In this document: piece by piece, positions 2,238-61,043 of the stretch | How the letters are laid out: each line of letters starts with the position of its first letter | How positions within the stretch are numbered: position 1 is the stretch's first letter | Assembly (NCBI GenBank): GCA_015039365.1 | Contig: WION01000013.1 | Span: 682,001-746,000 of the forward strand | Direction: 5' to 3' | DNA: 64,000 bases | Source: Amanita rubescens | Taxonomy: Eukaryota > Basidiomycota > Agaricomycetes > Agaricales > Amanitaceae | Made by a program: the position numbers and the translations under genes | The notes under the pieces: generated by a model | The model's database searches: none | What the model saw: only the letters and a program-made list of their open reading frames with translations | Told to the model about the DNA's origin: nothing

Positions 2238-5236
2238 CTATAGCTCATCATGCTCCTGTTTCGTATCTGCCTTCGCATTCGCCTTTTTAACCTTGGGAAC
2301 CCTCCTCCGAACTAATCTCTGCAAGTGTTGTTCAAGTACCTTGGCACGCGCCTTCATCTCCGTCGTCTCAATCACTGGATCTTCATACGACTTGACCTTT
2401 TTCTGCTTCTCTACCCACTCATTCAACCACCCCTCGTGCTCTCGCAAAGTCTTTTCTAGTCCCTCTAATTCATCCTTTGTCCACTTTGAGGGTTGTCCCG
2501 CCTCTTCTTCAGCAGTTATATTCTGCCGCGCTTCTTGCAGGAATAATCGCGTGCTCCAATTCCACATCTGACTGTTATTGAGCGCCTGTGGGAATGCTTC
2601 TATCTCTTGGTATCGGTGAATGATCGGTCGTTCCATGGCCTCTAATACTACACGTTTATCGAGCAGCTGAGATGTCTCGGCCAGGTCACCCATCTCGAAC
2701 AGCCATGTGAATGAATCGTCGAGTTTCTCAGAAATCGCTCTTCTCTCAGACTCTTGAGAGCATTTCTTGAATGGCGTCTCCGTGTTGTAAGGGTCGAGTA
2801 GGTCGCGTAGTCGATAGAGATATCCCTCGAAAGAATTCCGTGCTTCCTCTCGGCGAATTTTGCTAGCTTCTTCAGCATCCAATGCGCGAAGCCTGACGAA
2901 CATGGGTTGATGACAGTGTACACGGCGCACAACTCACCTGTTACGGGATTCCTTCTTCTCTTCTACTGACATCGGTTGTATAGATATAAAGTAGGTATTA
3001 ACGGTCAACGGAATCGTTTGCTCTTTCTGTAAGATCTTTTTGACTTCCGCCGAGGGCGAGGGAGTGGGTATTGTTGCTTCACCCGAGCTCGATGGCTCCG
3101 CTTCCGCAGAGGATGAAGATGAAGGAGATGCCGCGTCTGAATCAGAATCCGATTCTCTAGGCGGCTGATTAGCGACCGACTCCGTTGTTGTGTCTTCAGA
3201 GGAACTTGCTGCAAACAGTCCTTTCAGTTTTCCTATCCAATCGTTGGCGTACTCCGCAGCCTAGACACCGTACACGTACCTGTGAGGCTATCATCCTTGA
3301 TCTCTCCGTACGCAATCGCATCGGACACGGATACAAAGCCAGACTCGGAGAGCGTCACGGTGGTTTTAACCACAGGATCAACGACTCCCAACTCGGTCAA
3401 ATTCGCGATAGCTTCAGCAACTCCAACGATTTCCGCCTCGAGTATACGTTGAGGGAAGTCACTGCAATGTAATGAGTAATTCATCAGAGTTCACCGGGTA
3501 AGATCAACATACGGTGCGACATCCTTGTAATCAAGACTGATTGTGAAGTCATCCCTTCTCTTGAATGTCATCGTCTTCTTCGTGCCTACCCTAGATCCAG
3601 CAGGGAAGACAAGGGTCGTGATTGTGCGAGGCTTGCCCGAGGTAGTAGTGGATCCAGCAGAGTAGGACGCTTGCACGTCATGCGTAGCCATGTCGGATAC
3701 TTTCATGTTCTTTGTCCTGAATTGAGCGCTTAGACTTGCACCGCGGAGCGCAGCACCTGTAGACACCATTGGTTAGCTTATTGGTGAAGTATCGGGAACA
3801 GATACTGACCAAGGACGGCTGCTTCATCGGCATTGACGTTTTGAGCAATTTTGCCTCTGTGGGCGAATAGGTTAGCTTGGAACGGGGATAAAGAGAAGGT
3901 GGGACTTACTCCCCGACAGCTCCTCTTATGGCAGCCTGAATCATCGGCGTTCGCGAGGCACCACCAGTCAAAATAACTGATGACACGTCGTTCTACCAAG
4001 CCTTGTTAGCAAAGTGAACAAAACATCAAAAAGACATTACTTACCATCGTCAAACCTGCATTAGCCACCGCGTCGTGAATTGGCTTCGCAAATCGCCCCT
4101 TCATATCATCGCATGACTTCTCGAACATTTCCCTCGTCACCTTGGTCTTCAGATCTAAATCCCAAGCGATACTCTCGACCTAAAAACGTCAGAACACCAA
4201 CGCAGACCTGACTGGCATATTAATTCCCCACCTGTGCAATAGCATCCGAATTCGCGCTCAGGACCACCTTGACGCGCCCAGCTTCTTTCCAAAGCTTCGC
4301 CATCCCCTTCGCGTCCTGACGAACATCCCTCCCATGCTTGGCATTAAAACTCTCAATCAAAATCTCCCTCATCCGCCTATCCAGCTCAATCCCACCCGTC
4401 CGCCTATCATACCCAACACCCATAACCGTCACCTGCGGTCCCTCCACACCAGCGCTCCCCTTCTTCCCATTTCCATCCAAACTCCCCGTCGAAAACTGCA
4501 CAACCGTCGCTCTAATCGACGACGCGCCCGCGTCGTATATCACATGAACCTCCGGCTTTGCAAACGTTCTCGTCATAGCGTAGTTCACCGCAACAGCCGT
4601 TCCATCATTGATCAACGCAAGGGTTTTGAGCCCCGCGATCTCGATGGCGTCCACCATCGCGTCCCGCTCGAATTGGGTATAGAAAGGGGGCACGGTGACG
4701 ATCACGTCTCGCACTTTTTCACCGTCCGCGTAGCTCTCGGCGAAGATGCTTCACGTACGAAAGTTGCATTGCGATCAGGTCCTCCACCGTGAATGGTCCC
4801 CCGGAGGACGGAAGGAGACTGACGGTTTTGCGGGAGGTAGGAGAGAGAGGGCAAGTTTGTATTTGTCTATAGAATCGTGTTATTTCCGAGTCGTATGGAA
4901 CGCCTTGAAGGTATTTCACGTATGAAAAAGAATCTTGAGGGAATCGAGCAGCCTAAGTGTAAGATTAGAAGGTTAGTATTTTTTTTTGTTGGGGGGGGGA
5001 GTAGAGGAGCGACGTACGAGGTTGAATGCGTCTTGACCGAAAACCCGGTCATCCCTTTTCCATCCTACGGAAGCTTGGATCTTCCGTTTCGAGTCCTTGT
5101 TGAGGAGAACGTCGAATGGAGTGCCGGGTTTTACGAGCGAAGCTTTAATCCATTCCGAGCCATAGTCGACGGCTAAAATGGCCGCGAGGGCTGATTGGGG
5201 TATTAAAAGAAGTGGTAAGAGGGCGAAAAGCCGCAT
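2238..5236 (-). CDS. LHS1: LHS1/HYOU1-type ER Hsp70-family chaperone (Hsp110/Grp170 class), with one apparent frameshift
   Basis: This is an ER-lumen Hsp70 relative that acts as a nucleotide-exchange factor and holdase for BiP. A signal peptide (MRLFALLPLLLIPQSALA) is followed by the ATPase phosphate-1 motif AVDYGSEWIK. The connect and adenosine regions follow (VTVPPFYTQFERDAM, VIYDAGASSIRATVVQF, VILTGGASRTPMIQ), then a low-complexity Ser/Glu loop near 3,020-3,180. A long helical C-terminus ends in HDEL, an ER retrieval signal. Exon 1 is 5236-5018 and exon 2 starts at 4952; about seven introns follow. At about 4,743 one extra base (CATCTTCGCC) shifts the frame between LSYVKH and the following GEKVRDVIV. 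The truncated copy at 54.9 kb has CATCTCGCC and is in frame there. Either this copy carries a real lesion or it is an assembly error. Otherwise all blocks are conserved. Confidence 0.88.
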
Positions 5237-5572
5237 GCGCTGTTGAGTAAGATAGGTTAGTTGTTGGTTGAAGGAAATCCGGTCATCGACAACGGTCGAG
5301 CAACTTGAAATCTGTGTGTCGTGGCGGACACGTCGAGCGGGAGGTCACGTGGATTACGGCCATGCGCCGAGATGAAATCGGGGATGGAATGTTGCTCTAC
5401 TCTCCAAGCGGTAAGTTCCACCAAAGGACATGTAACTGGTTCATCGCGCGCAATAGGGGGAAACGCCATGTCTAATAGCCGCAGCGCGCACGGAAGGAGA
5501 CGCCGTGCGGGGGGAGACTGAATTCGGCCTGCCAGAAACAGATGCTTTGCGGCCGCCTTGTGCCTTGCCTCC
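5237..5572. promoter_or_regulatory. Bidirectional intergenic region between LHS1 and the NACHT-WD40 gene
   Basis: These 336 bp separate the divergent starts of LHS1 (5236, minus) and the NACHT gene (5573, plus), so both promoters must lie here or inside the genes. I see no convincing TATA box or known operator. Open reading frames in it look like chance. The two outer ends of the inverted copy at 54.7-61.0 kb both map to about 5,420-5,430 in this region. Confidence 0.5.
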
Positions 5573-8500
5573 ATGGATGACAGTTCCTCGTTCACTGCAG
5601 CAAAGAAATCGAAGAAAAGCGGAGGCATAGTAAATTTCCTTCGAGATCGGATTAAGCGAGACAAATCAGCCAATGCCTCTCCAAATTCGACGCGGGTTCC
5701 TGTCTCTTCAGCATCTAGCGCTCACGACCTTGTTCCAGGAAACGACGCTTCAGGTATATTGGGGTCATCTTAGTTTTATCTATGACCGCTCAACCTTACT
5801 CCAGGCAGCAATGCAACCTCGCATCAGGGTATGTACTGTCCTAGATTCCTACCTCACAGACTCAGCCCACCATCCAGACCCTACCACCGCAAGACCTCCT
5901 TCACCAAGCGTTCCAGATCTGTTGGGTTCCGCCGTGGGTCAAGGTGAGATAATACGCTGAATCTTCGCATCCGACTCATACTCGAAATCGACAGCCAAAG
6001 ATGTACTCGCAGTCGCTTGGACTGGTATGGAAATGTTGCTCAAGAAGGTCGAGGGATGTCTCGATGGAACTCTGGCAAAGGCGCCCATTGCCGCTGTTAA
6101 CGCCATCATCGACATAAAAAATGTACCTTGTCAGTCTCAGTGGACCACATACTTACTGATTCTCCGCTTCAGGCGGTTCAAGACAACAAGGGTGCCATCG
6201 ACAAACTCGTCATTCAGACTGCTGAAAGACTCCTCGCTGTGGATAAGGCAGTGGACCAAGGTATCCCCGACTCTGCAAAGCCACGAATGACGGCCTTCGC
6301 TGGGTAAGCCATTCACTTAGCAAAATCAAAGACAATAACCAATATGCTTGCAGGATCCTTCGGGATGAAATCCGCGAGCTAGAGCAAATGGGGTCGAAAG
6401 GGACATTTATACGGGTATTGGAGAATGAAGCAGACAGGGGAGCCATAGAGGACATATTCAAACGGATCGATGAGGCTACGAAGACTTTCCAGGTCAACCC
6501 TAACCTCCTATCAAATTACCAACTTGCTCATCCGTTGCATCCAGCTCGACATCGCCTGGACTACCGAGAGACAGGTGAATGTTATACTCTCTGAGATCAA
6601 GGTAAACATCAAATCTTCTACTATGACGAGCACTGATCATCCATCAGCTGATGCAACTTGACCGTATTCGCGCAAGGAAGGCAATTTACAATGCTGACTT
6701 GGGGGCCAGGGCGACGGTGACCCGCGAACCATGCACAAAAGAAACGCGCGAGGAGATTCTAAAGGATATAATTGAATGGGCCGACTCACCGGACAGCTCG
6801 TCTGTCTTCTGGCTGACCGGCGGGGCTGGCTCCGGCAAGACGACCATCGCATATACCATTGCCCAATACTTCGACAGGCTTGAGAATACTGGACGACACA
6901 CTGTCTTGGGCGGCAACTTTTTTTGCTCCCGCCAATTTGAAGAGACGAGACGACAAGTTCATATTATTCCCACCCTTGTATACCAGCTCGCTCGAAAGTC
7001 GAGATCGTACGCCCACGCTTTGCATGAATCGGACAAGTTCGACTCGGTCGACAAGTTGACCGAGCAGATGGAGGACCTCCTTGTTGGTCCATGGCGGCAG
7101 TCTGAACCTCGACGTCATACGGAGCTCCCACCTTACCTCATCATTGTCGATGCACTGGACGAGATCGAGGCCCATGGAGGGTCCATGTTTCTTCAAGACA
7201 TAATCGAGACAATCGACCGATGTCCCCTACAAGGACTCAAGTTTCTTTTCACAAGCAGACCAGACCCTCGTGTCGTCGAACTCTGCAAGCGTAAACCCTT
7301 CTCGTCCAACGCTGTCTATCGCTTGCAAGATGTACCAATTGAGCGTGTAGGATCAGACATCACCAAGTACCTGCATGTCAAGCTTCCAAACTTTGCGGGC
7401 AAGCCAGAGCTGACGACCATGGCACAGCTGGCAAACGGTCTTTTTATTTCCGCCGCAACCATCGTGAGGTATTTGACACCGCATCAAGGGATCACAGTAG
7501 ATGAGCAGTGCAGGCTACTGAGTAAGCTGCATGTCCAGCAATCATTTTCAGCGAGTGGTGCACGGCGACCGTTACTCATTGACGAGCTATACCAGCAAAT
7601 CCTGCATGACGCCTTTTCTGGCCTTGACGACGACCTCTTCAACTCTCGTCTGTGCATCCTCCATACCTTCCTCTGTACATTTGAACGCACATCGACATCT
7701 CTTGCTGCTGCCCTCCTCTCTGAATCTGATGCAATTGCGATCGCTGTCTTGAACGAACTTTACGCAGTTCTCTATTGCGAAGATGACCAGGTCCTTTGGT
7801 ACCACGCATCATTCCCCGACTTCATCTTCAGTCAGACTGAGACACGATCGACATTCGAGCTCGACGGTCGTCGGATTTCCATGTCAATTAACAAGGCCCA
7901 TCACCATGCCCTTCTCACAAAAAGTTGTTTCGATGTCATGAAGTCGCTGCGCTTCAATATCGGTGACATTCCATCGTCGTTTGTACTCGATGCTGACGAT
8001 CCAGAGCTAACGAAGCGGATTGATACCAATATCAAAGTCGTCTTGAGGTACGCTTCTCGGCACTGGGCTCATCATTTGGCCCAGACCGATGGAACTAACC
8101 CCGATGGCGAGGATCTCGGTGCTTGTATCACAGACTTCCTCCGTATCCGCATTCTCTTCTGGATAGAGGCCATGAACCTACTTGGATCCAGCAGTCAGTG
8201 TACCACAATGCTTCAACGTGCGCGCGAGTGGGTCTTGAAGGTGAGAATATTGTCACTTCGGATGCACAGTTTCTCATGCTGGTCAATCAGAACGCGAACA
8301 AGCAACCCGAGCTTGCTGCCAACATTGCTGAAGCAGCCAATTTCACTACTTACTTCACTGGGAATCCACCGGCTTTGTCTACACCGCACCTGTACATCTC
8401 AGCATTGGCGACCTGGTCAACAGGATCCACTCTCTCTCAACAGTGGAGAGAGCAGTTCCCTCACATCCCTTCCTTCACCCATAGGAAGGCCAGTGATTTG

Positions 8501-10585
8501 CCATTGATGACTATACAGGCCGGGAGTTCCAATATATCCGCCGCCTTCTCTGCTGATGGCATGCGCATCGTCTCCGGCTCAGACGACAACTCAGTGCGGG
8601 TGTGGGATGCCTCAACTGGAGCTGAACTGGGGGCATTCCATGGCCACACCGAGCGTGTCTCTTCTGTTTCCTTCTCCACTGATGATACCCACATCGTCTC
8701 CGGCTCATATGACGCGTCTGTGCGGGTGTGGGATGCCTCAACTGGGGCTGAGCTGAAGGTGCTCAATGGCCACACCGGGGACGTCTGGTCTGTCGCCTTC
8801 TCCCCTGATGGCATGTACATCGTCTCTGGCTCAGATGACAAGTCAGTGCGAGTGTGGGATGCCTCAACTGGGACTGAGCTGAAGGTGCTCCATGGCCACA
8901 CCGAGCGCATCAATTCTGTCGCCTTCTCCCAGCCTGATGGCACGCGTATCGTCTCCGGCTCAGGAGACAACTCAGTGCGGGTGTGGGATGTCGCAACTGG
9001 GGCTCAGCTGAAAGTGCTCCATGGCCACACCGAGGACGTCTCTTCCGTCGCCTTCTCCCCTGATAGTACGCTCATCGTCTCTGGCTCATATGACGAGTCA
9101 GTGCGGGTGTGGGATGCCTCAACTGGGGCTGAGCTGAAGGTGCTCCGTGGCCACACCAAGAATGTCAATTCCGTCGCCTTCTCCTGGCCTGATGGGACGC
9201 GTATCGTCTCCGGCTCTGGAGACACCACAGTGCGGGTGTGGGATGCCTCGACCGGGGTTGAGCTGAAGGTGCTCAATGGCCACACCCAGAACGTGAATTC
9301 CGCCGCCTTCTCCCCTGATGGCATGCGCATCGTCTCTAGCTCATATGACGGGTCAGTGTGTGTGTGGGATGCCTCGACTAGGGCTGAGCTGAAAATGCTC
9401 CATGGCCACACTGACCGTGTCTCTTCTGTCGCCTTCTCCCGTGATGGCACGCGCATCGTCTCTAGCTCATACGATGAGTCAGTGCGGGTGTGGGATGTCG
9501 CAACTGGGGCTGAGCTGAAGGTGCTCAATGGCCACACCGGGCCCGTCTCTTCCGTCGCCTTCTCCCCTGATGACACGCACATCGTCTCTGGCTCATATAA
9601 CACTGAGGAGTCGGTGCGGGTGTGGGATGCCTCAACTGGGGCTGAGCTGAAGGTGCTCCGTGGCCACACCGAGAGCGTCAATTCCGTCGCCTTCTCCCAC
9701 CCTGATGGCATGTATATCGTCTCTGGCTCAGATGACAGGTCGGTGCGGGTGTGGGATGCCTCAACCGGGGCTGAGCTGAAAGTGCTCAATGGCCACACCG
9801 GGCCTGTATTTTCCGTCGCCTTCTCACCTGACGGCACGCAGATTGTCTCTGGCTCACGGGACCAGTCAGTGCGGGTGTGGGATGCCTCAACTGGGGCTGA
9901 GCTGAAGGTGCTCCATGGCCACATTGAGGCCATCTATTCCGTCGCATTCTCCCGGCCTGATGGCACGCGCATCGTCTCCGGCTCATATGACGCGTCTGTG
10001 CGGGTGTGGGATGCCTCGACTGGGGCTGAGCTGATGGTGCTCAATAGCTGCGCCCGCGTCTTTTCCGTCGCTTTCTCTTCTGACGGTACGCACATTGTCT
10101 CCGGAGGCTCTGACCAGTTAGTGCGGGTGTGGGATGCCTCAACTGGGGCTGAGCTGAAGGTGCTCGGTGGCCACGCTGGGCCCGTCTTTTCTGTTGCCTT
10201 CTCCAATGATGGCGCACACATTGTCTCCGGCTCAAATGACAACTCTGTGTGGGTGTGGGATGCCTCAACTGAGGCTGTGACAGATTTCGACACACATTCA
10301 GTCAATTCCATTACCTCCGAGTCCCCAATTGATAGCACCTCCATTACCTTAGATGAAGAATCTGTACGGTTGTCCATTGTAGGTTGTGCGTACCCTGCTT
10401 GGACTTTTGATGACCGGGAAACACACTGGATCCTTTCGGTCCCTGGCGGTTATCGGCTAATGTATGTGCCAGAGCTGGCTTATCCATACAGCGTCATCAT
10501 CATTTCCTGCAAAGGATCTGCTTTGATTAACTTCCGAGATTGCAAGATTGGTCATGATTGGGCTGGTTGTTACATAGCTAGCTAA
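5573..10585 (+). CDS. NACHT-WD40 NLR-like protein with 14 near-identical WD40 repeats
   Basis: The start MDDSSSFTAAKKSKKSGG leads a basic N-terminus. Short helical exons follow (5.8-6.6 kb), then a NACHT domain with Walker A GGAGSGKTTIA (about 6,820) and Walker B LIIVDALDEIE (about 7,137). A winged-helix-like linker follows. Fourteen WD40 repeats run from about 8,520 to 10,280, each about 126 nt and ending in forms of SVRVWDASTGAELKVL-GH. The C-terminal tail ends GHDWAGCYIAS. The architecture is that of fungal HET-E/HET-D-type signal-transducing NTPases used in non-self recognition; cytosolic location is inferred. At about 8,240 the NACHT frame (…REWVLK) must join FLMLVNQN across only 29 nt bounded by GTGAG and ACAG. 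This is either a very short intron or a frameshift; the paralogue has the same 29 nt. The high repeat identity suggests ongoing unequal crossing-over. Confidence 0.85.
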
Positions 10586-11029
10586 GCATCGTAGTTTGTA
10601 GTAAATGTTCTGTATATATGTGATAAACAACTTATGTGCTTGTTAGGAATGTTCCTCCCAGAGAGCGAGTCTCAAATGTGCATCTGCTGAACCCCCGTTT
10701 CCCCCTGAGTTTCTCGAAGAATTAATCGACAGGCGACGATGTGGAGGTCGACGGTGCAGCTAAGCGTATTCGTCGTTATCCTGAATCTCGTCATTGTCAA
10801 TGGTGTCGGAGGATTCAACCTCCAATGTGATCGTTTTGCCTGCGAGGGTGATTGTGTTCAAGGCTGGAAACGGAGTTCTTCCGTGATGGGGATGGGCAAC
10901 GCCTGCAGAGTTGCGAGCTTACGCTCGAGTCGACAGCAGGTGGCGAGAGATGATTAGATTTGACTATCTATAGGTAATTACATAGACACTGCTACGTTCA
11001 AGTCCTTCAAAGAGAGGCATGTTGATGGG
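10586..11029. other. Intergenic region between convergent NACHT-WD40 and Crinkler genes
   Basis: This holds the 3' flanks of two convergent genes. A 72-codon plus-strand ORF at 10,739-10,957 starts with a hydrophobic stretch. The equivalent stretch in the paralogous block (56.5-56.75 kb) has a deletion, so it is probably not coding. I see nothing else. Confidence 0.4.
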
Positions 11030-13243
11030 TTACGCGAACAGAAACGATGCCATTTCGATGTCATGCTGTTTGGTGATGAACCCGCCACCCTCCACACCAT
11101 CCGGGCGCCTCACAGTTATCTTGTTGACATCAGCCGGGTACTTGGCCTCTCCAATAGACCCGGCCCAATCGAAGTCGATTAGGTGAATCTTCACATCATC
11201 AGATCTCAGCGACTCCTTTTCAATAAGAATATTGGCTTGTCGAATGTCCCCATGAACAAACCCCTTTTGATGTAACATTCGCACCACGCTCGTCACTTTA
11301 TGTCGCACCTTCTCGTTGTCCTCATCAGAGAGTATTAGATCAAATGGCACTAGGTACTTTGATTTGTCCATGATGACCGCGATCCAATCCGCAGATATTC
11401 GAACGCATCGCCTAAGCCTCGGCGCTAAATCGTAGGATGCCAGATAGTTATGCGTGTCCTCCGAATACCAAGGCGTGAACTTGACAACGAATTCGCTAGA
11501 ATCAGGCTGGTTGACAATGGAGGCAGAGAAGACAAGCTTTTCGTCATGGAGCCGCTCGTTGTACATGAAATTTATTTCCTGCCCGTTGTCTTCGTAGGAT
11601 GTCAAGAACGGATATCCGCGAGCTTTCTGAAGGTCAAGATTGTACCCCTCTGGTGGGGTTGGATTCACCTTGGCCTCGGCTTCGATTGACTTGTAATGTG
11701 CTTCAATACTGTTAGCGGCAACCATAAACGCATCGAGGGAGGCTGCAATCGTCCATCTGGCTTTGGTTTCCTTCCAATGGGTTGACAGATCGAAGATGTG
11801 TGTCAGAGGTTCGACCCTTACGCGCTTCCCGTCCCATACTGCACCGTAAAATCCCAAATAGGAACCTGAATATACCATGAACAAGTGAACCGACAATAAA
11901 TGAGCAGACGTACCCATATCTATCATGAGAATGCTCGGAAAACGTGTGTTGAAGTTGTAGAAGCGACGGGGATCCCTATGTGCTTTGCTCAGAAAGTTTG
12001 CATAGTATAGGATGACCTGGTTGAGAACATCTCCGTGCTCTTTCTTGCATGCTCGGATAGCTGCCGGCATGACGATGACGAGAAGGTTTCCATCAGTCAT
12101 GAATTCGGTACCCGGGACCGTCTGCTCGTGGAGCCGGAGACCCATGTGCCGCTCGAGTATGAACTGAATTTCCGTCCTCCGCTCGAGCTCCAGACCGTGC
12201 CATTCGCAGGCGACAGGGGCAAGTTCACCGAGACAAATGAGTGCTCGCTCCGAAGGTGCCTTTTCACACCTATCTTTGAAGATTGCAAAAGCTTCGTGAA
12301 GTAGCACGAGAGGGATCGTAAGGGGTTCAAACGGACGATTGAGGGCAATGGCACGTTCTGGTCCCACAATTTGTTTGAACCGGGATGCATCCGCTAGGGT
12401 CGACGGCGCGCTCGCAATGTCCATCCTCAGACGCTTAAGTGGCGGATGGCCGTCTTCACCATGTTTGCGCTTGTCCTGCTGGATATCTACATGGTAAATC
12501 ACTTGCATATAACAGGATTGAAAGAGAGTACATACTAGGCAGCTGTACCAGCAGCATCTCATCCGGTGGCATCTTGAGTTTCAACACATATTCCTCGTCA
12601 GGGAGCCGCTTGGCGTGCTGATTGTTAGAAAGGTCGAAGGTGCGGACACGTGCCTCAAATGCTTGTTTGCCTTCTTTATTTCCTTGTACCTTCAGACCAC
12701 TGCATCTCAACACCGCGGGCTCGTTGAGGCCAATTTCGATACCGACCTTTGCTAAGACCACCTCCTTCACCTTCAATACATTGATCCCAGGAAATACGGC
12801 GACAGAGAGGAGGCGAACAGGCTTCTGATCAAGATCGACGACGAGGCACCAGAGGGGACCTGACATGACAGTGGTAAATCACTTGAATATAGCAGGGTGA
12901 AGGAGAATATATACTGGGCAACCGTACCAGTAGCCTCTCATCCCCTTGCACACCGAGGCTCGACACATTTCTAGCCGGACCAAGTATACGGGCAGTCTTC
13001 TTGTTGGAAAGGTCGAGCCTGAGGATAATTTCTTGGAGTACTTTTGGATCGTCATCGTCGGATGCCAGGGCAGTGCATTTCCACACTTCGAGCATGCCGA
13101 TGTCGACGTCGCCAAAGACCATTGGTTCCACATCCTTGAGCAGCTGCTTCAGTGCTAGGATAGTTGTTTGAGGAGATATGAGCACAGCGGTCGCAAAGAT
13201 ATTCCTTCATAGCATCGATAATGATGCATCCGACGGATGACAT
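11030..13243 (-). CDS. Crinkler-type protein: tandem ubiquitin-like headers plus kinase-like C-terminal domain
   Basis: The C-terminal exon (12,49x-11,030) encodes a protein-kinase-like fold with the catalytic loop FVHGDIRQANILI and a DFDWAG motif in place of DFG. Upstream sit two header exons of the CRN N-terminal type. Header 2 starts MSGPLWCLVVDLDQKPVRLL at 12,866. Header 1 lies at about 13,243-12,915 with DIGMLEVWKC and RLDLSNKKTARILGP. The introns after the two headers are similar (GTATATATTCTCCTTCA and GTATGTACTCTCTTTCA), so an exon plus its intron was tandemly duplicated. Header 1 is disturbed near its start: MSSVGCIIIDA is out of frame with NIFATAVLISPQTTIL, so translation may really begin at header 2. 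A 48-nt intron lies at about 11,912-11,865. CRN proteins are effectors or intragenomic conflict proteins. No signal peptide is visible. Target unknown. Confidence 0.7.
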
Positions 13244-37406: not shown

Positions 37407-37710
37407 CAGAAAGTGCCCTATGACCAGTCACATCACGTCAATCGAGTGCTGTACAAGAGTAATATTTCGGCAATCGTGAAATCGTTCCCTGCCTGTGGTG
37501 TAAGTTTCCTCCTTGTATTAGACTGCCCTTGTACGGTATTACTAGTTCTTTGATTTCCGTAAATGCAAGAAATCTGTGCAGTAAATTTCATATATGCCTA
37601 GTAGTTCGTGAAACGTAAGAGTCGTGAGGTAACGGAAAGTTGAAAAAAGGATATATGCCAATGTCGTGTGAATAGGATAATGTCATGAATTATGGTGTCA
37701 AGGGACGCAT

Positions 37711-46255: not shown

Positions 46256-46754
46256 TGTAAGTTCCCTACTAAAACCCTCGGTGATGAGAATTTTCACGCA
46301 TTTAATAGGTAGCAAGGATAGACTACACAAGGCCAAGACGATAGACCTTTGTCAAAATCCCTTGACAGTATGTCGGGCCCTATGCAAATTCGTGGTATAT
46401 GCCAACAGCTTACACACTGTTTGCAGAAAGAACCCAAACTTGCTCGCGCGAGACAGATACCCGAATGGGAAGAGTATGATGCTGAAATAGCAGGGTTTAC
46501 AAGAAAGCTTGCGGAGGAGGGCAAGATTCAATCTGGGCTGGCTACGGCGGATGTGAACTCATTGGCAAACACAGGAAGTTCACTTTCTGCTAGTGAGGTT
46601 GAGGCAGATGCACGTATTGAAACAGCAATGGTTCGTGACGAACTATAAGGGACTTGTACTTTACCAACAGGCCGTAATATTAAAATAATATTGACGCTGC
46701 GCGCATTGTTAGTTGTACAGTCACATCGTCTTCCATCTCACCACCTCAATCACA
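46256..46754. other. Short unrecognised ORF and 5' flank of the second Ub-fusion gene
   Basis: An open frame at 46,349-46,648 (MSKSLDSMSGPMQIRGICQQ…, ending MVRDEL) follows the separase relic. It is helical and charged, with no recognised domain, and may be another captured exon. The flank before 46,755 shares only the last about 35 bp (CATCGT…CACCACCTCA) with the other Ub-gene promoters. Confidence 0.35.
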
Positions 46755-47701: not shown

Positions 47702-48150
47702 AATTAGATCTTCTACTTTACAAAATACCAACATCATCAGGAAAAACATTGATGGCCATTTAGACCCAATAATCTCTACTTACATTTAATGCGACTAATA
47801 AATGTAGTAGCCCAGATATTCAAGTCTAATTTACTAATAAATCATACAATGTTTTGTCCAATCTGCTTAGTTAAAAAGAATAGTGTCTGGGATATTGAAT
47901 GGATTGGCAAGGAAATGACCAACATTGTATCACTACTTAAGTCCTGAGGTATTGTATGACCGACCAGGAAGGGCACGCATTGATATGCAGACGTCGACCG
48001 CTGCAGCAGGGAGCGGCCATACTAGCGCTACAGTTTGCGATGTGCAATGGGGAGATGTGGTTCATGTTCATATCGCCATCTGCGTCGTGTTTTCGTTCTT
48101 GATGGTAATAGTACTCTCGGATTTACCACTGTGAACATGCTAAATGGACG
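47702..48150. other. AT-rich 3' flank, nothing recognised
   Basis: AT-rich sequence with poly(A)-signal-like AATAAA-type words (TTTACTAATAAATCA) after the second Ub-fusion gene. The ORF at 47,925-48,134 shows no known motif. Confidence 0.4.
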
Positions 48151-49484: not shown

Positions 49485-52400
49485 ACGGGTTCAGTAAGGA
49501 TGTGTAAGTTACCCTGACCCCACCCGTACCTTTAGTTTTCCAAGCGCAGAGAAGCGGCACCAGGCCACACATCCTGACAACGGTGACGACGTACATGTGT
49601 TGAATCAGATTGATCTCTCACAAGTCTCACTTCTCACGGTCACTGACAATCTCAACTTGTTTTGCTTCACACTGTTCGACTTCAAGCTTCAACGTTCAAC
49701 GTTTCAACACCCACTGACTTCGATCTTTCAATTCTCATATGTTGTCCCACTCGCGAACGGTCTTCAGATAATCGTACAGTACTGCAAGCCAGCTAGCTTA
49801 AAAAAGCGAGTTGTTTCATGCCTCAAGGCAAGACAGCGTCAGATTTGAATTTTAAAGGGTACTAATGAGATGCCAGAATGTCAGGAAAATATAAAAACAG
49901 TTATTGTTCCAGCCCATTAAAAAATCGTATGTGGCACATCGTTTCGATGTCTATCATTCAATTATATCCATTTTTCAGGGTACCGGCCACAAAGCAAGAA
50001 GGCGAACCGAACGAACATGATAACGAAACAAATGCCATATGAAGACATGTACCGATTAGTCGGTGGTGAAGGTGGCGATTTGTATAACAGAGCAAATTTG
50101 GAAAAAAAACCTACCGTTCAACGAAATGAACGACAATTACAACTGGGATGGTGCAAGTAAGTATCGTACACCGTATAGCCGCAGAGTTATTCATAATACT
50201 CAATTTTACTGTAGGTTCAGCACTCGCCAAAATTGCATCCGAGTGTGCGCCAAATAAAGACTCTTTTTTTGCAACTATCAGAAGTAATGAAGGCAGGTGT
50301 ATTTATCACCACTATAAAATGAGAACAATTATCATATAATTGTGTTAGGATCGACAATGGGCTGGAAAATTCACAGTCATGAAATTGGACATCCAGACCC
50401 TTCATCTGATCTACCCGATCAAGGAGAATGAGCCGTCGGAGGAAGTTGTGTTTGTGATACAAGGTATAATTTGCAGACAAGATCTCCCTCCTTTCGATAA
50501 GCAAATATCGTATGTTGAACAACCATCTTATTCTAGTCGTAAACATTTCTCATTATCATTTCGTGTAGAGCCCCTTCGCAGATCAGATATCTTCGACAAG
50601 GTGTATCTCTTACTGGACTAGGCACACCACTTTTCGATTTGTCCATTAAAGCGATAATGGATATATGCCCTTTTCAGCCAGTCGGTACCACGGGAAAAAC
50701 TGCAACCCTGCTCGTTTATCGATCACTATGGCAAATACACAGGGATCGAAATGTCAAACAGGTATTTTTCACCGAGAAAAGATTTCCCGACCAGCAAAAG
50801 TGTCCCATTCAGCAGCGACATAGACCCTGAACGAGAGCAGCAGGGACAAATTATGTACATACAGATCACAATGTAGTTTCATACTACGAGCGTTCAGTGG
50901 GATCAAATGGCAATACGAGGTGCGTTGCACAAATTTGCAAATGAAAAATTGTTGTCGAATGGAATTTATAGCTACAAAGAAATTACACCTGTGAACTTTT
51001 GCGTCGGAGATCTTGTCGAAGTACAATTAACTCTGATGTTGGTACCATTAAGAGGAGGGCAATACAAATTAGCACCCGTATTGCGGTGCTTGACAATGCT
51101 AGACTCGAAATTTTCTCAGGTGAATAATAAATCAAGCATCAATCATAATTATTAACCCACTCATAAACTCATCAAGTTATCGTTAGTAGCTAATGTATCA
51201 AATCGAGTGAATGTACGGCCACTCGCTCACTCCACATCGATCATTTCATTTAAGCGAAAGGTCGGTTACACCAACCATGAAAAGGTATTAGGAAGAATGG
51301 AAGTTGACGATACCGGCGAGCGACATCACATCGTTATACATACAGAGGGAGAAAGGCATTCGTAGTATTATTGAATATTACGTTGATACTTTATTATGCT
51401 TATGTACTAACGTATGCTCCTGCATAAACGCTACCGATAACTGGACAAAGATAGTGGGTGTACCAACACTATTGTATCATCATGGGTATGAACGACCATC
51501 ATGAATTGTATGTACGCGACGAATGCGCGCGCAGGCGCAGCCAAGAACGAATGCGGCGGCGTGGCCTTCCCGCAGACTCAAAGTCACGAGAGCAAAGGAA
51601 AGGCGCTTCAAGAAGGGGGCTTTGCGGCATTTGTGATGCTTGTGGTGCTCCTTTTTGCGGCGACGAGAGACGTAGGTTGACCAGCTAGCAAGTTTGGAAA
51701 TAGGTGGTAAGAGTACCACCTCGAATTCCGGTAAGTACTGGTTGGCACTGGATTGAATAGCATGACGTCATAGGGACATCGCCTGGTTGAGCCGAGACTA
51801 CTGAGGACACAGCCTGGCTGTGCGTGGATGATTGGGCCAGCCGGCGCGAGGAGGGTTGGATGAGCCAGCGTGGGATAAGCAGATGCAGGCGGATAGCGCG
51901 GCGAGGGAGCTGCAAGAGGATGAGGTGAGCGTGTGGCGGCACTTGTATCGATTGGCGCATTGGCGGCATCGCTGGAATGCCGCCAGAGTGTGGCGGACCA
52001 GCCGTGTAGTAAATTACTTGACCAGGTATAGGGTTGCATCAGCTGGCGTGGATCCGGGAAGGCGCGTTTCAGCTGGGGCATTGAATCGGATTGTGCATTG
52101 GCAGAGCGGTGCGGCACAGGGATGTGGAGTAGTGCAAGTGCTGCTGTGGTATTCCGCGAGGATGTTTCCTCGCATCTGCTGATTTATATGTTGGCGAAGG
52201 TGGCATAGACCCGCCGTTTTCACCCGAAAGAAGGTTTTGGGCGCGGGTAAAGGGATGGGACACGATACATTCTTCAGCTAGGAGCGGTGCAAGGGTCTGT
52301 ACAGGATTGGTGGATACAGGCAGGTAGGGTGGCGTGGTGTGGTGGCTGCGTTTGAAGCGAGTGAGCAAAGATTTATGGTGTTGCTGCCAGCATGTAACTC

Positions 52401-53154
52401 GTGTCGCCGGGTGTCTGCCTTGGCATGCAATCCTTATACACATAAGGGCTTCTTCAACAAGCTCGCTCTCGTTGAGAGCTTCAGCTTGCCGTTCTGAGCG
52501 GCCTTCCCGGACTCCGCCATCGGAGAAGAGCGGCATGGGTCCAGGACACTTTGGACCGGACTTTTGGTAGGGAGCGGGGAGCTCGCTGGCTCTCGAGGTC
52601 TTGGGCTGCTGAAGAGCAACCTTGAGATGGACAGCCGAGGATCGCGCCGGGGTCAGATTCAGGTTCCGAGGCTGCTGAGTGCGAGTCCGCGCTGGTGCTA
52701 GTTTATCTCTTAACGGCGTTTAGGGCCTGTTGCCTGGATGCGGACTCTGGCAATGGCTCCGGATGCAGTACCAGCTGCAGAGGTACGGACTCTGAACACG
52801 TATGAAGAAACAGCGAGTGTTGCAGCCAGAATTCGTCTGGGATGGTAAAATGAGATTATAAATGAAACTGGCGAGAGAAAACACATACCGTTGTATGCTA
52901 AGCAGCCGGCGGTGAGTCGCAGCCATAACACAACCAATTTTCTTGTAGGGTTCCCATCCATGCAAACATGATGAGCAGCAGCACTGGGTTTCACCCAGCA
53001 ATTGAAGCTAAGGCAAAGGTGCCGTGCAGCACCTACGCATGCACAGTGGTCACTAGTCACTAGTGAAGAGAACGGAAAATTTCGATTTTGACGTGGCAGG
53101 CGCAAAGTACAAATAATTGCAAACAACCCACCTCACACTCGCGCGCATATCGAC
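49485..53154. other. Long gene-poor region: AT-rich then GC-rich
   Basis: From 49.5 to 51.5 kb the DNA is AT-rich; from about 51.5 to 53.0 kb it becomes GC-rich with no recognised family in any frame. I see no terminal repeats, tRNA-like structure or transposase motif. A doubtful multi-exon relic at 50.0-51.1 kb is listed separately. ORFs at 51,458-52,570 on both strands overlap each other heavily and look like a consequence of high GC content. Confidence 0.4.
50040..51155 (+). pseudogene. Fragment of a repetitive Agaricomycete protein family of unknown function
   Basis: The clearest part (50,907-51,155) reads NGIYSYKEITPVNFCVGDLV, then LTLMLVPLRGGQYKLAPVLR and CLTMLDSKFSQ. Proteins with the pattern VGDxVExQ…VPxxGGxYKLxPVLRxLxxLD recur many times in mushroom genomes, often in repeat-rich DNA. 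Upstream frames at 50,040-50,621 may be its earlier exons; an intron-like GTAAGTATCG…TTACTGTAG lies at about 50,157-50,215. No catalytic motif is visible. Family recognition is from memory of the pattern and is uncertain. Confidence 0.35.
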
Positions 53155-54651
53155 ATGCTGAAGGAATATGGCATATATTTTCGCAAGATGTTGCCGATAT
53201 TAAACTCTAATGATGATTTCTGCTCGCTTCTTAGCGTCGCCGTAACGAAAGAAGAAACCAGCGCTTGCGTAACTCATCTGATTACCATTTTTGATGAAGT
53301 CGGCGCTCCGGCATCTGCGTACAGCGATAATAATGACATATTCAGCACATTCCTATCCTACTGCAATCTTGCATCATCCACACCACACATAGGACAAAAT
53401 TTACGTCAGGCTATTAAATCTCGAAAACGAATATGTGCATTCCGCCGAAACTACCACCGCAAAATTATACGAGACGCAGGTCTAAATTGGAAATCTCCAA
53501 AACAAAAGATTTCCAGAGACCAAAGATTCGAAAATGCTCGCAAAATATATGCCCCATACCTTGATATCCCTTATCCCCCACGTGGAGAATGGGTCGTCGA
53601 GCACCCCGATGTCATGCATTTATGGAAGAAATACCTCACGAAGCGAAAGCTTCCTGACAAACGAGGATCCCATGCACCACTACACATGATCGACATGGAT
53701 TCTCTTTTTGCTTCGATAGGTCCCAGTGAAGATGCGATCGTATATGACAAAGACACCGGGGAGGTTGTCCTTGTCGTTTATCGTAACATATGTGCTGTCG
53801 AGGAACTTGTCGATAAGGCAGATTCTGTGGTGATCCAGGCGCTGGATATGTTGAAAAATTGTCGCGTCAGTACAAATTTCGAGTATATATCGCTATTTAA
53901 AACGCTAATTCGTTATCCAGCTCGAAGACACTGGCTCTATAGTTCAAATAGGATATTCGACCGGAGCTCGCTGCGCTCCTACGTTCGATTGGGCTCGCAA
54001 TATTATATCTAAACGTACAACAAAACAGCTCATCGAAAACCTCGACGTCGCGACCAGCGCTGTTTTTGCTATGTTTTGGAACTTATGTCGCGCATGGTTG
54101 CCATGTTTCGTGATCCAAGACATTGCAAACTTTACCAGTCCAAATCAAATGCCCTTAATGGATGGGCATCGCCAAAAAGACACAACCTATGGAACATATA
54201 CAGTTAATATAAACGACATCGAGATCGAATTTCATGACGCTCTTCTTGCACCACCATCTGGAGTCATGTCTTCAAACTATTCCAGGTAAAGTCATTAAAA
54301 CGATTGAAACTACAGTCTTAATTTATTAGAGTGATACATCGAGAAGATCAACCTCACAAATGGTCGATCTCATGGACAACTGAACGAACACGCGAGGACG
54401 ACATAGGTGGAGCATTTTACGATGCTCAATATGGTATACGAATTTCAGGTGCCAAGAATACTCTCATCGCATGGCAACCGGATCATTTTCATGGTACAAG
54501 CCTGCAACTCTTCTCCCCTGTCGACGATAATCCAGAATGCTGTCAAAGAGGCTTAGCGATCGTTACTCCTAAGCGACTACCATATGTATGGAGAAAATAC
54601 AAACAAAATGAGATCACCCCGACAAGAAGCGACACGTATTATATACCGTGA
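53155..54651 (+). CDS. Agaricomycete-specific protein with a C-terminal double-stranded beta-helix-like region
   Basis: Exons 53,155-53,865, 53,921-54,285 and 54,330-54,651 join in frame to 465 residues. Both introns are typical (GTCAGT…CCAG; GTAAAG…TTAG). The N-terminus is basic and helical; KIYAPYLDIPYPPRGEWVVE and MIDMDSLFASIGPSEDA lie in the middle. The C-terminal part has ALLAPPSGVMSSNYSR, HREDQPHKWSISWTTERTRE, a GGAFYDAQYGIRI strand and IAWQPDHFHGTSLQLFSP. This layout is shared by a multi-copy Agaricomycete family without assigned function. GG-x-F, YGI and HFHGT suggest a double-stranded beta-helix such as 2OG-Fe(II) oxygenases have, but I do not see a convincing HxD. It ends about 50 bp before duplication A'. 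Confidence 0.55.
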
Positions 54652-54892
54652 TGAGGAAATAGAGTATTAAACGCTAGCTCTTCCTAGTAGAAACGTATAT
54701 AAAAATGTCGGCCTGCAACTTGCTTTTTGGAGAGTAGAGCAATATTCCACCCCCGATTTAATCTCGGCGCATGGCCGTAATCCACGTGACCTCCCGCTCG
54801 ACGTGTCCGCCACGACACAGATTTCAAGTTGCTCGACCGTTGTCGATGGCCGAATTTCCTTCAACCAACTAACCTTTCTTACTCAACAGCGC

Positions 54893-56037
54893 ATGCGGCT
54901 TTTCGCTCTCTTACCACTTCTTTTAATACCCCAATCAGCCCTCGCAGCCATTTTAGCCGTCGACTATGGCTCGGAATGGATTAAAGCTTCGCTCGTAAAA
55001 CCTGGAACTCCATTCGACGTTCTCCTCAACAAGGACTCGAAACGGAAGATTCAAGCTTCCGTAGGATGGAAAAGGGATGACCGGGTTTTCGGTCAAGACG
55101 CATTCAACCTCGTACGTCGCTCCTCTACTCCCCCCCCCCAAAAAAAAATACTAATTTTCTAATCTTACACACTTAGGCTGCTCGATTCCCTCAAGATTCT
55201 TTTTCATACGTGAAATACCTTCAAGGCGTTCCATACGACTCGGAAATAACACGATTCTATAGACAAATACAAACTTGCCCTCTCTCTCCTACCTCCCGCA
55301 AAACCGTCAGTCTCCTTCCGTCCTCCGGGGGACCATTTACGGTGGAGGACCTGATCGCAATGCAACTTTCGTACGTGAAGCATCTCGCCGAGAGCTACGC
55401 GGACGGTGAAAAAGTGCGAGACGTGATCGTCACCGTGCCCCCTTTCTATACCCAATTCGAGCGGGACGCGATGGTGGACGCCATTGAGATCGCGGGGCTC
55501 AAAACCCTTGCGTTGATCAATGATGGAATGGCTGTTGCGGTGAACTACGCTATGACGAGAACGTTTGCAAAGCCGGAGGTTCATGTGATATACGACGCGG
55601 GCGCGTCGTCGATTAAAGCGACGGTTGTGCAGTTTTCGACGGGGAGTTTGGATGGGAATGGGAAGAAGGGGAGCGCTGGTGTGGAGGGACCGCAGGTGAC
55701 GGTTATGGGTGTTGGGTATGATAGGCGGACGGGTGGGATTGAGCTGGATAGGCGGATGAGGGAGATTTTGATTGAGAGTTTTAATGCCAAGCATGGGAGG
55801 GATGTTCGTCAGGACGCGAAGGGGATGGCGAAGCTTTGGAAAGAAGCTGGGCGCGTCAAGGTGGTCCTGAGCGCGAATTCGGATGCTATTGCACAGGTGG
55901 GGAATTATATGCCAATCAGGTCTGCGTTGGTGTTCTGACGTTTTTAGGTCGAGAGTATCGCTTGGGATTTAGATTTGAAGACCAAGGTGACGAGGGAAAT
56001 GTTCGAGAAGTCATGCGATGATATGAAGGGGCGATTT
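54893..56037 (+). pseudogene. LHS1: Truncated LHS1 copy (first half of the ATPase domain)
   Basis: Starts with the same signal peptide and AVDYGSEWIK motif as the full gene and keeps the intron after FGQDAFNL. It reads through LSYVKHLAESYADGEKVRDV without the frameshift seen in the full-length copy. It breaks off after DDMKGRF at 56,037 and continues into Crinkler sequence. The equivalent of the downstream intron (…AIAQ|VES) is present. It lacks the rest of the ATPase domain, the C-terminal domain and HDEL. If expressed it would make a secreted ATPase fragment fused to a short kinase piece. Confidence 0.85.
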
Positions 56038-56038
56038 C

Positions 56039-56421
56039 GGCGATGCGTTCGAATATCTGCGGATTGGATTGCGGTTATCATGGACAAATCAAAGTACCTA
56101 GTGCCATTTGATTTAATACTCTCTGGTGAGGACAACGAAAAGGTGCGACACAAAGTGACGAGCGTGGTGTGAATGTTACATCAAAAGGGGTTTGTTCATG
56201 GGGACATTCAACAAGCCAATATTCTTATTGAAAAGGAGTCACTGACATCTGATGATGTGAAGATTCACCTAATTGACTTCGATTGGGCCGGGCCTATTGG
56301 AGAGGCCAAGTACCCGGCTGATGTCAACAAGATAACTGTGAGGCGCCCGGATGGTGTGGAGGGTGGCGGGTTCATCACCAAACAGCAAGACATCGAAATG
56401 GCATCGTTTCTGTTCGCGTAA
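56039..56421 (+). pseudogene. Crinkler kinase-domain fragment
   Basis: Matches the last about 127 codons of the Crinkler gene at 11,030-11,412. It includes FVHGDIQQANILIEKES and HLIDFDWAG, and ends MASFLFA. An in-frame TGA at 56,170-56,172 replaces the source CGA codon (VVRMLH), a C-to-T change at CpG. The headers and the N-lobe are missing. The LHS1 frame does pass into the Crinkler frame at the joint (KGRF|RRCVRISADW), so a fusion peptide up to the TGA is possible. Confidence 0.82.
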
Positions 56422-56866
56422 CTTTTTTTTTCTATCAACATGCCTCTCTTTGAAGGACTTGAACGTAGTAGTGTCTATGTAATTACCTATAGATAGTCAA
56501 ATCTAATCATCTCTCGCCACTTGCTGTCGACTCGGGCGTAAGCTCGCAACTTTGCAGGCGTTGCCCATCCCCATCATGGAAGAACTCCGTTTCCAGCCTT
56601 GAACACAATCACCCTCGCAGGCAAAACGATCACATTGCGGCACCATTGACAACTCCAAGATTCAGGATAACGACGAATACGCTCAGCTGCTCCGTCGACC
56701 TCCACATCGTCGCCTGTCGATTAATTCTTCGAGAAACTCAGGGGGAAACGTGGGTTCAGCAGATAGATGCGCATTTGAGACTCGCTCTGTGGGGCAAGAA
56801 CGTTCCTAACAAGCACATAAGTTGTTTATCACATATATACAGGACATTTACTACAAACTACGATGC
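56422..56866. other. Inverted copy of the Crinkler/NACHT intergenic region
   Basis: Corresponds to source 10,586-11,029 in inverse orientation, with deletions. No gene is supported. Confidence 0.6.
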
Positions 56867-59800
56867 TTAGCTAGCTATGTAACAACCAGCGCAATCATGT
56901 CCAATCTTGCAATCTCGGAAGTTAATCAAAGCAGATCCTTTGCAGGAAATGATGATGACGCTGTATGGATAAGCCAGCTCTGGCACCCACATTAGCCGAT
57001 AACCGCCAGCAACCGAAAGGATCCAGTGTTTTTCCCGGTCATCAAAAGTCCAAGCAGGGTACGCACAACCTACAATGGACAACCGTACAGATTCTTCATC
57101 TAAGGTAATGGAGGTGCTATCAGTTGGGGACTCGGAGGTAATGGGATTGACTGAATGTGTGTCAAAATCTATCACTACAGGCTCAGCCTCAGTTGAAGCA
57201 TCCCACACCCACACAGAATCGTCATTTGAGGTAGAGACAATGTGCGTGCCATCATCGGAGAAGGCAACATAAAAGACGGGCCCAACGTGGCCACCGAGCA
57301 CCTTCAGCTCAGCCCCAGTTGAGGCATCCCACACCCGCACTAACTGGTCAGAGCCTCCGGAGACAATGTGCGTACCGTCAAAAGAGAAAGCGACGGAAAA
57401 GACGCGGGCGCAGCTATTGAGCACCATCAGCTCAGCCCCAGTCGAGGCATCCCACACCCGCACAGACGCGTCATATGAGCCGGAGACGATGCGCGTGCCA
57501 TCAGGCCGGGAGAAGGCGACGGAATAGATGGCCTCAATGTGGCCATGGAGCACCTTCAGCTCAGCCCCAGTTGAGGCATCCCACACCCGCACTGACTGGT
57601 CCTGTGAGCCAGAGACAATCTGCGTGCCGTCAGGTGAGAAGGCGACGGAAAATACGGGCCCGGTGTGGCCATTGAGCACCTTCAGCTCAGCCCCAGTTGA
57701 GGCATCCCACACCCGCACTGTGGTGTCTCCAGAGTCGGAGACGATACGCATCCCATCAGGCCAGGAGAAGGCGACGGAATTGACGCCCTCGGTGTGGCCA
57801 TGGAGCACCTTCAGCTCAGTCCCAGTTGAGGCACCCCACACTCGCACTGACTTGTCATCTGAGCCAGAGACGATGTACATGCCATCAGGGGAGAAGGCGA
57901 CAGACCAGACGTCCCCGGTGTGGCCATTGAGCACCTTCAGCTCAGCCCCAGTTGAGGCATCCCACACCCGCACAGACGCGTCATATGAGCCGGAGGCGAT
58001 GTGGGTGTCATCAGTGGAGAAGGAAACAGAAGAGACACGCTCGGTGTGGCCATGGAATGCCCCCAGTTCAGCTCCAGTTGAGGCATCCCACACCCGCACT
58101 GAGTTGTCGTGTGAGCCGGAGACGATGCGCATGCCGTCAGCAGAGAAGGCGGCGGATATATTGGAACTCCCGGCCTGTATAGTCATCAATGGCAAATCAC
58201 TGGCCTTCCTATGGGTGAAGGAAGGGATGTGAGGGAACTGCTCTCTCCACTGTTGAGAGAGAGTGGATCCTGTTGACCAGGTCGCCAATGCTGAGATGTA
58301 CAGGTGCGGTGTAGACAAAGCCGGTGGATTCCCAGTGAAGTAAGTAGTGAAATTGGCTGCTTCAGCAATGTTGGCGGCAAGCTCGGGTTGCCTGTTCACG
58401 TTCTGCTTGACCAGCATTAGAAACTGTGCATCCGAAGTGACAATATTCTCACTTTCAAGACCCACTCGCGCGCACGTTGAAGCATCGTGGTGCACTGACT
58501 GCTGGATCCAAGTAGGTTCATGGCCTCTATCCAGAAGAGAATGCGGATACGGAGGAAGTCTGTGATACAAGCACCGAGATCCCCGCCATCGGGGTTAGTT
58601 CCATCGGTCTGGGCCAAATGATGAGCCCAGTGCCGAGAAGCGTACCTCAAGACGGCTTTGATATTGGTATCAATCCGCTTCGTTAGCTCTGGATCGTCAG
58701 CATCGAGTACAAACGACGATGGAATGTCACCGATATTGAAGCGCAGCGACTTCATGACATCGAAGCAACTTTTTGTGAGGAGGGCATGGTGATGGGCCTT
58801 GCCAATTGACATGGAAATCCGACGACCGTCGAGCTCGAATGTCGATCGTGTCTCAGTCTGACTGAAGATGAAGTCGGGGAATGATGCGTGGTACCAAAGG
58901 ACCTGGTCCTCTTCGCAATAGAGAACTGCGTAAAGTTCGTTCAAGACAGCGATCGCAATTGCATCAGATTCAGAGAGGAGGGCAGCAGCAAGAGATGTCG
59001 ATGTGCGTTCAAATGTACAGAGGAAAGTATGGAGGATGCACAGACGAGAGTTGAAGAGGTCGTCGTTCCAGAAAAGGCATCATGCAGGATTTGCTGATAT
59101 AGCTCGTCAATGAGTAACGGTCGCCGCGCACCACTCGCTGAAAATGATTGCTGGACATTCAGCTTGCTCAGTAGCCTGCACTGCTCATCTACTGTGATCC
59201 CTTGATGCGGTGTCAAATACCTCACGATGGTTGCGGCGGAAATAAAATGACCGTTTGCAAGCTGTGCCATGGTCGTCAGCTCTGGCCTGCCCGCAAAGTT
59301 CGGAAGCTTGACATGCAGGTACTTGGTGATGTCTGATCCTACACGCTCCATTGGTACATCTTGCAAGCGATAGACAGCGTTGGACGAGAAGGGTTTACGC
59401 TTGCAGAGTTCGACGACACGAGGGTCTGGTCTGCTTGTGAAAAGAAACTTGAGTCCTTGTAGGGGACATCGGTCGATTGTCTCGATTATGTCTTGAAGAA
59501 ACATGGACCCTCCATGGGCCTCGATCTCGTCCAGTGCATCAACAATGACGAGGTAAGGTGGGAGCTCCGTATGACGTCGAACTTCAGACTGCCGCCATGG
59601 ACCAACAAGGAGGTCCTCCATCTGCTCGGTCAACTTGTCGACCGAGTCGAACTTGTCCGATTCATGCAAAGCGTGGGCGTACGATCTCGACTTTCGAGCG
59701 AGCTGGTATACAAGGGTGGGAATAATATGAACTTGTCGTCTTGTCTCTTCAAATTGGCGGGAGCAAAAAAAGTTGCCGCCCAAGACGGTGTGTCGTCCAG

Positions 59801-60900
59801 TATTCTCAAGCCTGTCGAAGTATTGGGCAATGCGATGGTCGTCTTGCCGGAGCCAGCCCCGCCGGTCAGCCAGAAGACAGACGAACTGTCCGGTGAGTCG
59901 GCCCATTCAATTATATCCTTTAGAATCTCCTCGCGCATTTCTTTTGTGCATGGTTCGCGAATCACCGTTGCCCCGGCCCCCAAGTCAGCATTGTAAATCG
60001 CCTTCCTTGCGCGAATACGGTCAAGTTGCATCAGCTGATGGATGATCAGTGCTCGTCCTAGTAGAAGATTTGATGTTTACCTTGATCTCAGATAGTATAA
60101 CATTCACCTGTCTCTCGGTAGTCCAGGCGATGTCGAGCTGGATGCAACGGATGAGCAAGTTGGTAATTTGATAAGAAGTTAGGGTTGACCTGGAAAGTCT
60201 TCGTAGCCTCATCAATCCGTTTGAATATGTCCTCTATGGCTCCTCTGTCTGCTTCATTCTCCAATACCCGTATAAATGTCCCTTTCGACCCCATTTGCTC
60301 TAGCTCGCGGATTTCATCCCGAAGGATCCTGCAAGCACATTGATTATTGTCTTTAATTTTGGTAAGCGAATGGCTTACCCACTGAAGGCCGTCATTCGTG
60401 GCTTTGCAGAGTCAGGGATACCTTGGTCCACTGCCTTATCCACAGCGAGGAGTCTTTCAGCAGTCTGAATGACGAGTTTGTCGATGGCACCCTTGTTGTC
60501 TTGAACCGCCTGAAGAGGAGAATCAGTAAGTGTGTGGTCCACTGAGACTGACAATGTACATTTTTTATGTCGATGATGGCGTTAACAGCGGCAATGGGCG
60601 CCTTTGCCAAAGTTCCATCGAGACATCCCACGACCTTCTTGAGCAACATTTCCATACCAGTCCAAGCGACTGCGAGTACATCTTTGGCTGTCGATTTCGA
60701 GTATGAGTCGGATGCGAAGATTCAGCGTATTATCTCACCTTGACCCACGGCGGAACCCAACAGATCTGGAACGCTTGGTGAAGGAGGTCTTGCGGTGGTA
60801 GGGTCTGGATGGTGGGCTGAGTCTGCTAGATCTGTGAGGTAGGAATCCAGGACAGTACATACCCTGATGCGAGGTTGCATTTCTGCCTGGAGTAAGGTTG
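56867..60900 (-). pseudogene. NACHT-WD40 paralogue with 8 WD40 repeats and a frameshift after Walker A
   Basis: Inverted copy of the gene at 5,573-10,585. Helical N-terminal exons, NACHT (GGAGSGKTTIA, LVIVDALDEIE) and WD40 repeats are all recognisable. A 7-nt deletion just after Walker A (ACCATCGCATTGCCC against ACCATCGCATATACCATTGCCC) shifts the frame. The first exon with the start codon is missing. A second disruption lies near 59,060, where the frame changes within SFSGTTTSSTLVC. Repeats fall from 14 to 8, consistent with deletion of six units between repeats 4 and 11. The same 29-nt gap before the WD40 part is kept. Unlikely to make a full NLR, but the WD40 block (56,867-58,570) is open. 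Confidence 0.82.
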
Positions 60901-61043
60901 AGTGCGTTGCGGCTATTAGACATCCCCCTATTGCGATGAACTATTTGATCATGATTGCCAAGTCGCGAGTCGGTATTTGCCACTACAGTTCGGAGCGACA
61001 ATTATATTAGTAATACATCGTGTTTCACCACCTCACCACCACG

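Follow-up and report, generated by a model that had tools for sequence, protein, structure and literature searches.

The 64,000 nucleotides of Amanita rubescens analysed here (the window; positions are counted from its first base) correspond to C35:682,001-746,000, where C35 stands for contig WION01000013.1, one of 786 in a 75.7-Mb assembly, and they contain a NACHT-WD40 receptor gene whose locus reappears, inverted and in altered order, about 43 kb away. The gene is spread over two frames (open reading frames (ORFs) 6,651-8,507 and 8,123-10,585, with a NACHT domain and 14 WD40 matches) and lies between an HSP70-like and a kinase-like ORF (Table 1). Many stretches were found on two contigs with equal scores; therefore, the assembly appears to us to contain two nuclear haplotypes. 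In this region the second haplotype is represented by contig C407 (about 98% alignment between -6.7 and 80.9 kb on the scale of the window), and its receptor region is still more broken. A third contig with the source region, C126:1-17422, is 98-99% like C35 and C407, starts inside the WD40 array and is either an assembly leftover or a third haplotype.

Self-BLAST of the window gave three inverted matches: 4,090-5,420 = 56,037-54,714 (identity 97.3%), 5,789-9,515 = 60,902-57,181 (94.6%) and 9,299-11,415 = 58,156-56,036 (91.7%). In the minus-strand direction, the copy (54,714-60,938) runs from source 5,439 to 11,412, passes a single extra base at 56,038 and continues from source 4,090 to 5,420. 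The order of the 7.3-kb source piece, A-B/C-D, has become B-A/D-C in the copy, which is a defining feature of human circular-DNA-mediated segmental duplications (cSDPs) in PMC7450558.

Table 1. Window positions of the source blocks, their permuted copy and the acceptor sequence.
Feature	Position	Strand	Remarks
Source block A-B	4090..5420	+	upstream stretch with HSP70-like ORF 4,220-4,714 (minus)
Source block C-D	5439..11412	+	NACHT-WD40 gene and 3' part of kinase-like ORF 11,030-12,562 (minus)
Opening point B/C in source	5421..5438	+	bases missing at both copy ends; 18 bp, up to 34 bp with left end at 5,406
Copy of block A-B	54714..56037	-	= source 4,090-5,420
Closing joint	56038		single extra base where source 11,412 meets source 4,090
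Copy of block C-D	56039..60938	-	source 11,412 down to 5,439; source 5,488-5,788 deleted at 60,902/60,903; about six WD40 repeats fewer
Acceptor, left part	52952..54704		repeat family; copies on C683, C162, C321, C680, C257, C640, C177
Acceptor, right part	60937..60988		same acceptor sequence; 14-37 bp from left part in seven paralogs

The extra base at the closing joint is C on the plus strand (G in the reading direction), and the joint can be read equally well with the source continuing to 11,415, a single substitution and 2 bp (AA) of overlap. In both readings the A/D joint is without homology, with a short indel or a 2-bp overlap only, as in human cSDPs, where the closing joint has a 1-nt insertion or 1-2 bp of microhomology and gains or losses amount to 1-27 bp (PMC7450558). 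Comparing the 200-bp surroundings of 4,090 and 11,412, we found a longest exact direct match of 7 bp (mean of 200 random pairs, 9.3). The two joined points therefore share no sequence beyond that of random pairs, which indicates that closure was not by homologous recombination. Recombination between repeats near 4,090 and 11,412 was considered as a route of closure and rejected, the surroundings having no repeats in common. Among 19 matches in the assembly, the closing joint is spanned at one place only.

The left outer end of the copy corresponds to source 5,406-5,420 (the match is clear to 5,406 and patchy to 5,420). Plain BLAST places the end of the right side at 5,789, and a 54-column match (5,434-5,487 = 60,946-60,904) extends it to 5.44 kb, with the right outer end at source 5,439-5,441 inside that match. 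The 54-column match scores 22, against a control maximum of 15 (0/3,396 control 73-mers from elsewhere on the contig reach 22), and is the best non-self match of its stretch in 174 kb of C35, C407 and C126 (E 3.8e-4). The two outer ends thus map 18-34 bp apart on the source, consistent with a single opening point B/C with a small loss, likewise a feature of cSDPs in PMC7450558. Independent ends would fall within 18 bp of each other with a chance of about 0.5% and, by simple arithmetic, within 34 bp with a chance of about 1%. A preliminary description of the window had reported an inverted, circularly permuted duplication in which source ends 4,090 and 11,412 are joined through a single extra base; self-BLAST and base-level reading bear out both points. 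It had overlooked the 301-bp deletion (source 5,488-5,788) just inside the right end and the absence of about six WD40 repeats. Its further statement that both outer ends fall at the same source point holds to within 18-34 bp, rather than the hundreds of bases that would have told against it.

The acceptor is a single sequence. The stretches 52,952-54,704 and 60,937-60,988 adjoin each other in C683, and both flanks were found in 7/7 paralogous places that reach the left-flank edge, with spacings of 14, 14, 14, 14, 28, 19 and 37 bp. These seven empty sites are paralogs inside the same genome, not the orthologous locus of another species; two of them, on C683 and C162, seem to be allelic, so that fewer than seven are independent. 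With the flanks 14-37 bp apart in all seven, the permuted block must have entered one pre-existing sequence as a unit, and one acceptor site that is empty in paralogs again corresponds to the description of cSDPs (PMC7450558). Several unrelated insertions at different times or places are not favoured, as both outer edges meet in one empty site. We also found no support for the block being a transposon: its ends are unrepeated at the seven empty sites and both come from the middle of one source locus (no search was aimed at transposon ends). The first impression that 52,952-54,704 is a transposon abutting the block was discarded, since it is repeated sequence that continues beyond the far side of the block.

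The ancestral donor is the 4-11 kb locus, from which the sequence at 54.7-60.9 kb was copied. Paralogs of the left part on C124, C405 and C46 are unbroken over 2,197-5,330, crossing 4,090, and paralogs of the kinase-like part are unbroken through 11,412 on at least six contigs (C5, C396, C457, C220, C178 and C439; 32 of 108 candidates were scored). The permuted form is therefore the derived one, and an identifiable ancestral locus also belongs to the features of cSDPs (PMC7450558). The left part of the copy is 99% identical to this source at the joint and 90-94% to the paralogs, and the kinase-like part 96% and 84-88%, respectively. Since both pieces are much closer to the 4-11 kb locus than to any paralog, the donor was that locus itself. 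The three aligned parts of the copy differ from the source at 20/1,302, 68/2,601 and 42/1,112 bases (1.5, 2.6 and 3.8%; chi-square p = 0.003), while the C35 and C407 alleles differ in the same parts by 0.85, 1.96 and 1.70% (p = 0.035), unevenly but less so.

Block order, joints, single insertion site and ancestral locus are thus established, and we consider it likely that a 7.3-kb piece was closed into a circle, reopened elsewhere along its length and inserted in inverted orientation about 43 kb away. Under this model, 4,090-11,412 (the NACHT-WD40 gene, the end of the kinase-like gene and the upstream stretch) would have been copied or released as an extra fragment, whose ends would have been joined without homology into a circle (the joint now at 56,038); the circle would then have been opened at about 5.42-5.44 kb with the loss of some 18-34 bp, and joined inverted into a break in repeat-family sequence. 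Afterwards the copy would have lost 301 bp at the gene start, about six WD40 repeats and its intact reading frame. The single assumption that a circle was closed, opened once and inserted by end joining would explain all joints together with the near-coincident outer ends. The preliminary description had likewise proposed a reinserted DNA circle, and the block order, the end-joining type of joint and the near-coincident ends support it; the physical circle, the chemistry of end joining and the sequence in which the later losses took place are inferred. Some points weigh against the circle. The placement of the right end at 5.44 kb depends on one 54-column match; the wider estimate of the opening loss (34 bp) exceeds the 1-27 bp of the human cases (PMC7450558); a second insertion of the same circle, as expected from repeated integration of the wine-yeast type, was not found among the 19 assembly matches, of which one place spans the joint; and the unequal divergence of the copy parts opposes a single simple event, so that uneven constraint, conversion or a recombinant donor has to be invoked.

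The main rival to the circle, and in our view an unlikely one, is template switching in repair (microhomology-mediated break-induced replication, MMBIR, or fork stalling and template switching, FoSTeS), by which a break in the acceptor would have been filled by copying from 5,420 to 4,090, after which synthesis would have switched to 11,412 and proceeded to 5,439, without any circle. Such repair produces mosaics marked by short scars, and duplicated pieces abound in the region; moreover, the right insertion joint permits a 2-bp microhomology (GT), and PMC7450558 itself deems the insertion step compatible with MMBIR. However, template switching leaves unexplained why the second tract ends 18-34 bp from the start of the first, in the same orientation and without overlap, a coincidence with a chance of about 0.5-1%. 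A similar coincidence burdens the route through a tandem duplication at the source, which would carry the same joint (11,412|4,090) and from which a linear fragment of one unit would have been transferred inverted. Tandem duplications are common, but the fragment would have to equal one unit to within 18-34 bp, unless it left as a circle; no array was seen, the joint is present only at 56,038 among the 19 assembly matches, and the source is single on C35 and C407 and, as far as that contig reaches, on C126. We therefore regard this route as improbable.

Two further possibilities seem to us very improbable, and about equally so. A plain inverted copy might have been rearranged in place later by a block swap or by two exact inversions, and the surroundings are indeed heavily rearranged; yet this needs several extra breaks, all inside the block, while its outer edges remain clean in the acceptor, and PMC7450558 argues likewise against two inversions. 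Alternatively, the joint at 56,038 or the outer ends could be artefacts of assembly: the joints are known from the assembled sequence, and C126 and C407 terminate inside this repetitive region. However, each of the two parts of the copy is set apart from all alleles seen by differences of its own (the copy branch bears 45 changes), and neither could be placed elsewhere in the assembly; the joint is without a repeat, and the outer edges match the seven empty sites.

With regard to the genes carried by the inserted block, the copy retains 8 WD40 matches against 14 in the source, and the array spans correspond to 7.7 and 13.8 units of 126 bp, respectively. These 126-bp repeats are highly alike within both arrays (8537-10277 in the source, about 14 repeats; 57181-58156 in the copy, 8 repeats), a likeness to fungal receptor genes with fast-changing WD40 repeat numbers. 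The 301 bp of the source (5,488-5,788) that are deleted in the copy, immediately inside its right end, probably contain the first exon of the receptor gene, which by eye reads open from 5,573. Where the source has a single ORF, the matched receptor region of the copy is split among three frames; with the frame so broken, the copy probably does not encode a functional receptor. The genes of the window are fungal; the closest named match of the receptor ORF is from Laccaria bicolor (71%; best 120 of 812 matches), and that of ORF 25,541-27,526 is from Amanita phalloides (67%; best 120 of 288 matches). An additional broken piece of receptor gene (92-93%) lies about 50 kb upstream of the source, at C35:634884-636486 and C407:180394-181996, and a minus-strand ORF with a HET (heterokaryon incompatibility) domain is located at 29270-30850, some distance (19 kb) from the NACHT-WD40 gene.

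The permuted block is missing from C407 where C407 and C35 align. On C35 it forms part of an 18-kb segment X (42,776-61,000) flanked by an 11-kb direct repeat, U (31,785-42,775) and U' (61,001-71,936), and C407 has one U and no X. Over their first 2.4 kb, U and U' have 75 differences in 2,403 aligned bases, and thereafter they differ by about 0.5%. The single U of C407 is a mosaic, like U at its left end (67/75) and like U' at its right end (7/8), with switches between. Such a mosaic is consistent with recombination of U with U' and the resulting loss of X; the gain of X and U' by a C407-like form predicts the same ends. The left ends of U (31826 onward) and U' (61042 onward) open, by eye, with a ubiquitin-like reading, which has a relative at 46.7-47.7 kb. 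The sequence before the block (42,774-54,704) is itself a patchwork: 42,774-46,240 matches C650/C175 (88-92%), with pieces of a separase-type peptidase C50 at 44.8-46.5 kb, 47.7-49.3 kb matches C255/C557/C673, and 49.8-54.7 kb matches C683/C321.

In an outgroup-polarised alignment the copy had 45 private changes, compared with 10 in the C35 source and 14 in C407. Twelve polarised sites group the alleles against the copy, and 14 fall in other groupings that include the copy (the largest, C407+C126+copy, has 5; C126 covered two of the three alignment parts only). The copy is probably older than the split of C35 and C407, its signal apparently blurred by recombination or conversion, and the lack of an older copy on C407 would fit either an old polymorphism or a later loss from C407.

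Comparable rearrangements have been described in yeast, cattle and human, and the block at 54.7-60.9 kb fits the testable defining features of human cSDPs. It shares with them the B-A/D-C order, the closing scar, small losses at the opening and at the acceptor, joints without homology and a non-tandem placement; it differs in size (7.3 kb here, >20 kb there, 22-3,918 kb in their Table 1), in its fungal host, in being missing from the second haplotype contig and in its opening loss (18-34 vs 1-27 bp; PMC7450558). Region B of wine yeasts, a segment from Zygosaccharomyces bailii, is also fungal, with a circularly permuted gene order and integration without homology (2-3 bases of microhomology), whereas it occurs in up to eight forms in 28 strains and is foreign DNA with a working replication origin; here there is one insertion from a native locus (PMC3053389). 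The translocations behind colour-sidedness in cattle likewise involve a circle that was closed by end joining and then integrated at another place, but they measure 492 and 575 kb and have a visible phenotype (as summarised in PMC7450558 and PMC9694575). Takahashi and Innan described duplications mediated by extrachromosomal circular DNA (eccDNA) in which a circle, opened at a different position, is integrated again (three candidates in human, 95.3-97.0% identity); theirs span about 20-130 kb with the donor unclear in candidates C1 and C2, while here the donor is clear (PMC7188851). Since the features of cSDPs are present and the repeated integration of the wine-yeast type was not seen, we place the block with the circular-DNA-mediated duplications.

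Among the matches listed in the open-licence literature, we found no paper on circle-mediated duplication in Agaricomycetes. The window provides a case in mushrooms with three readable joints, a nameable ancestral locus and several empty-site paralogs. A far wider proposal, which we think quite unlikely, would be that mushrooms regularly spread, shorten and reshuffle NACHT-WD40 (NLR-type) genes by DNA circles: repeat-rich clusters would shed circles that are end-joined into nearby repeat families, and the 11-kb direct repeats U and U' on either side of this insert would then allow haplotypes to acquire or shed entire blocks through recombination.

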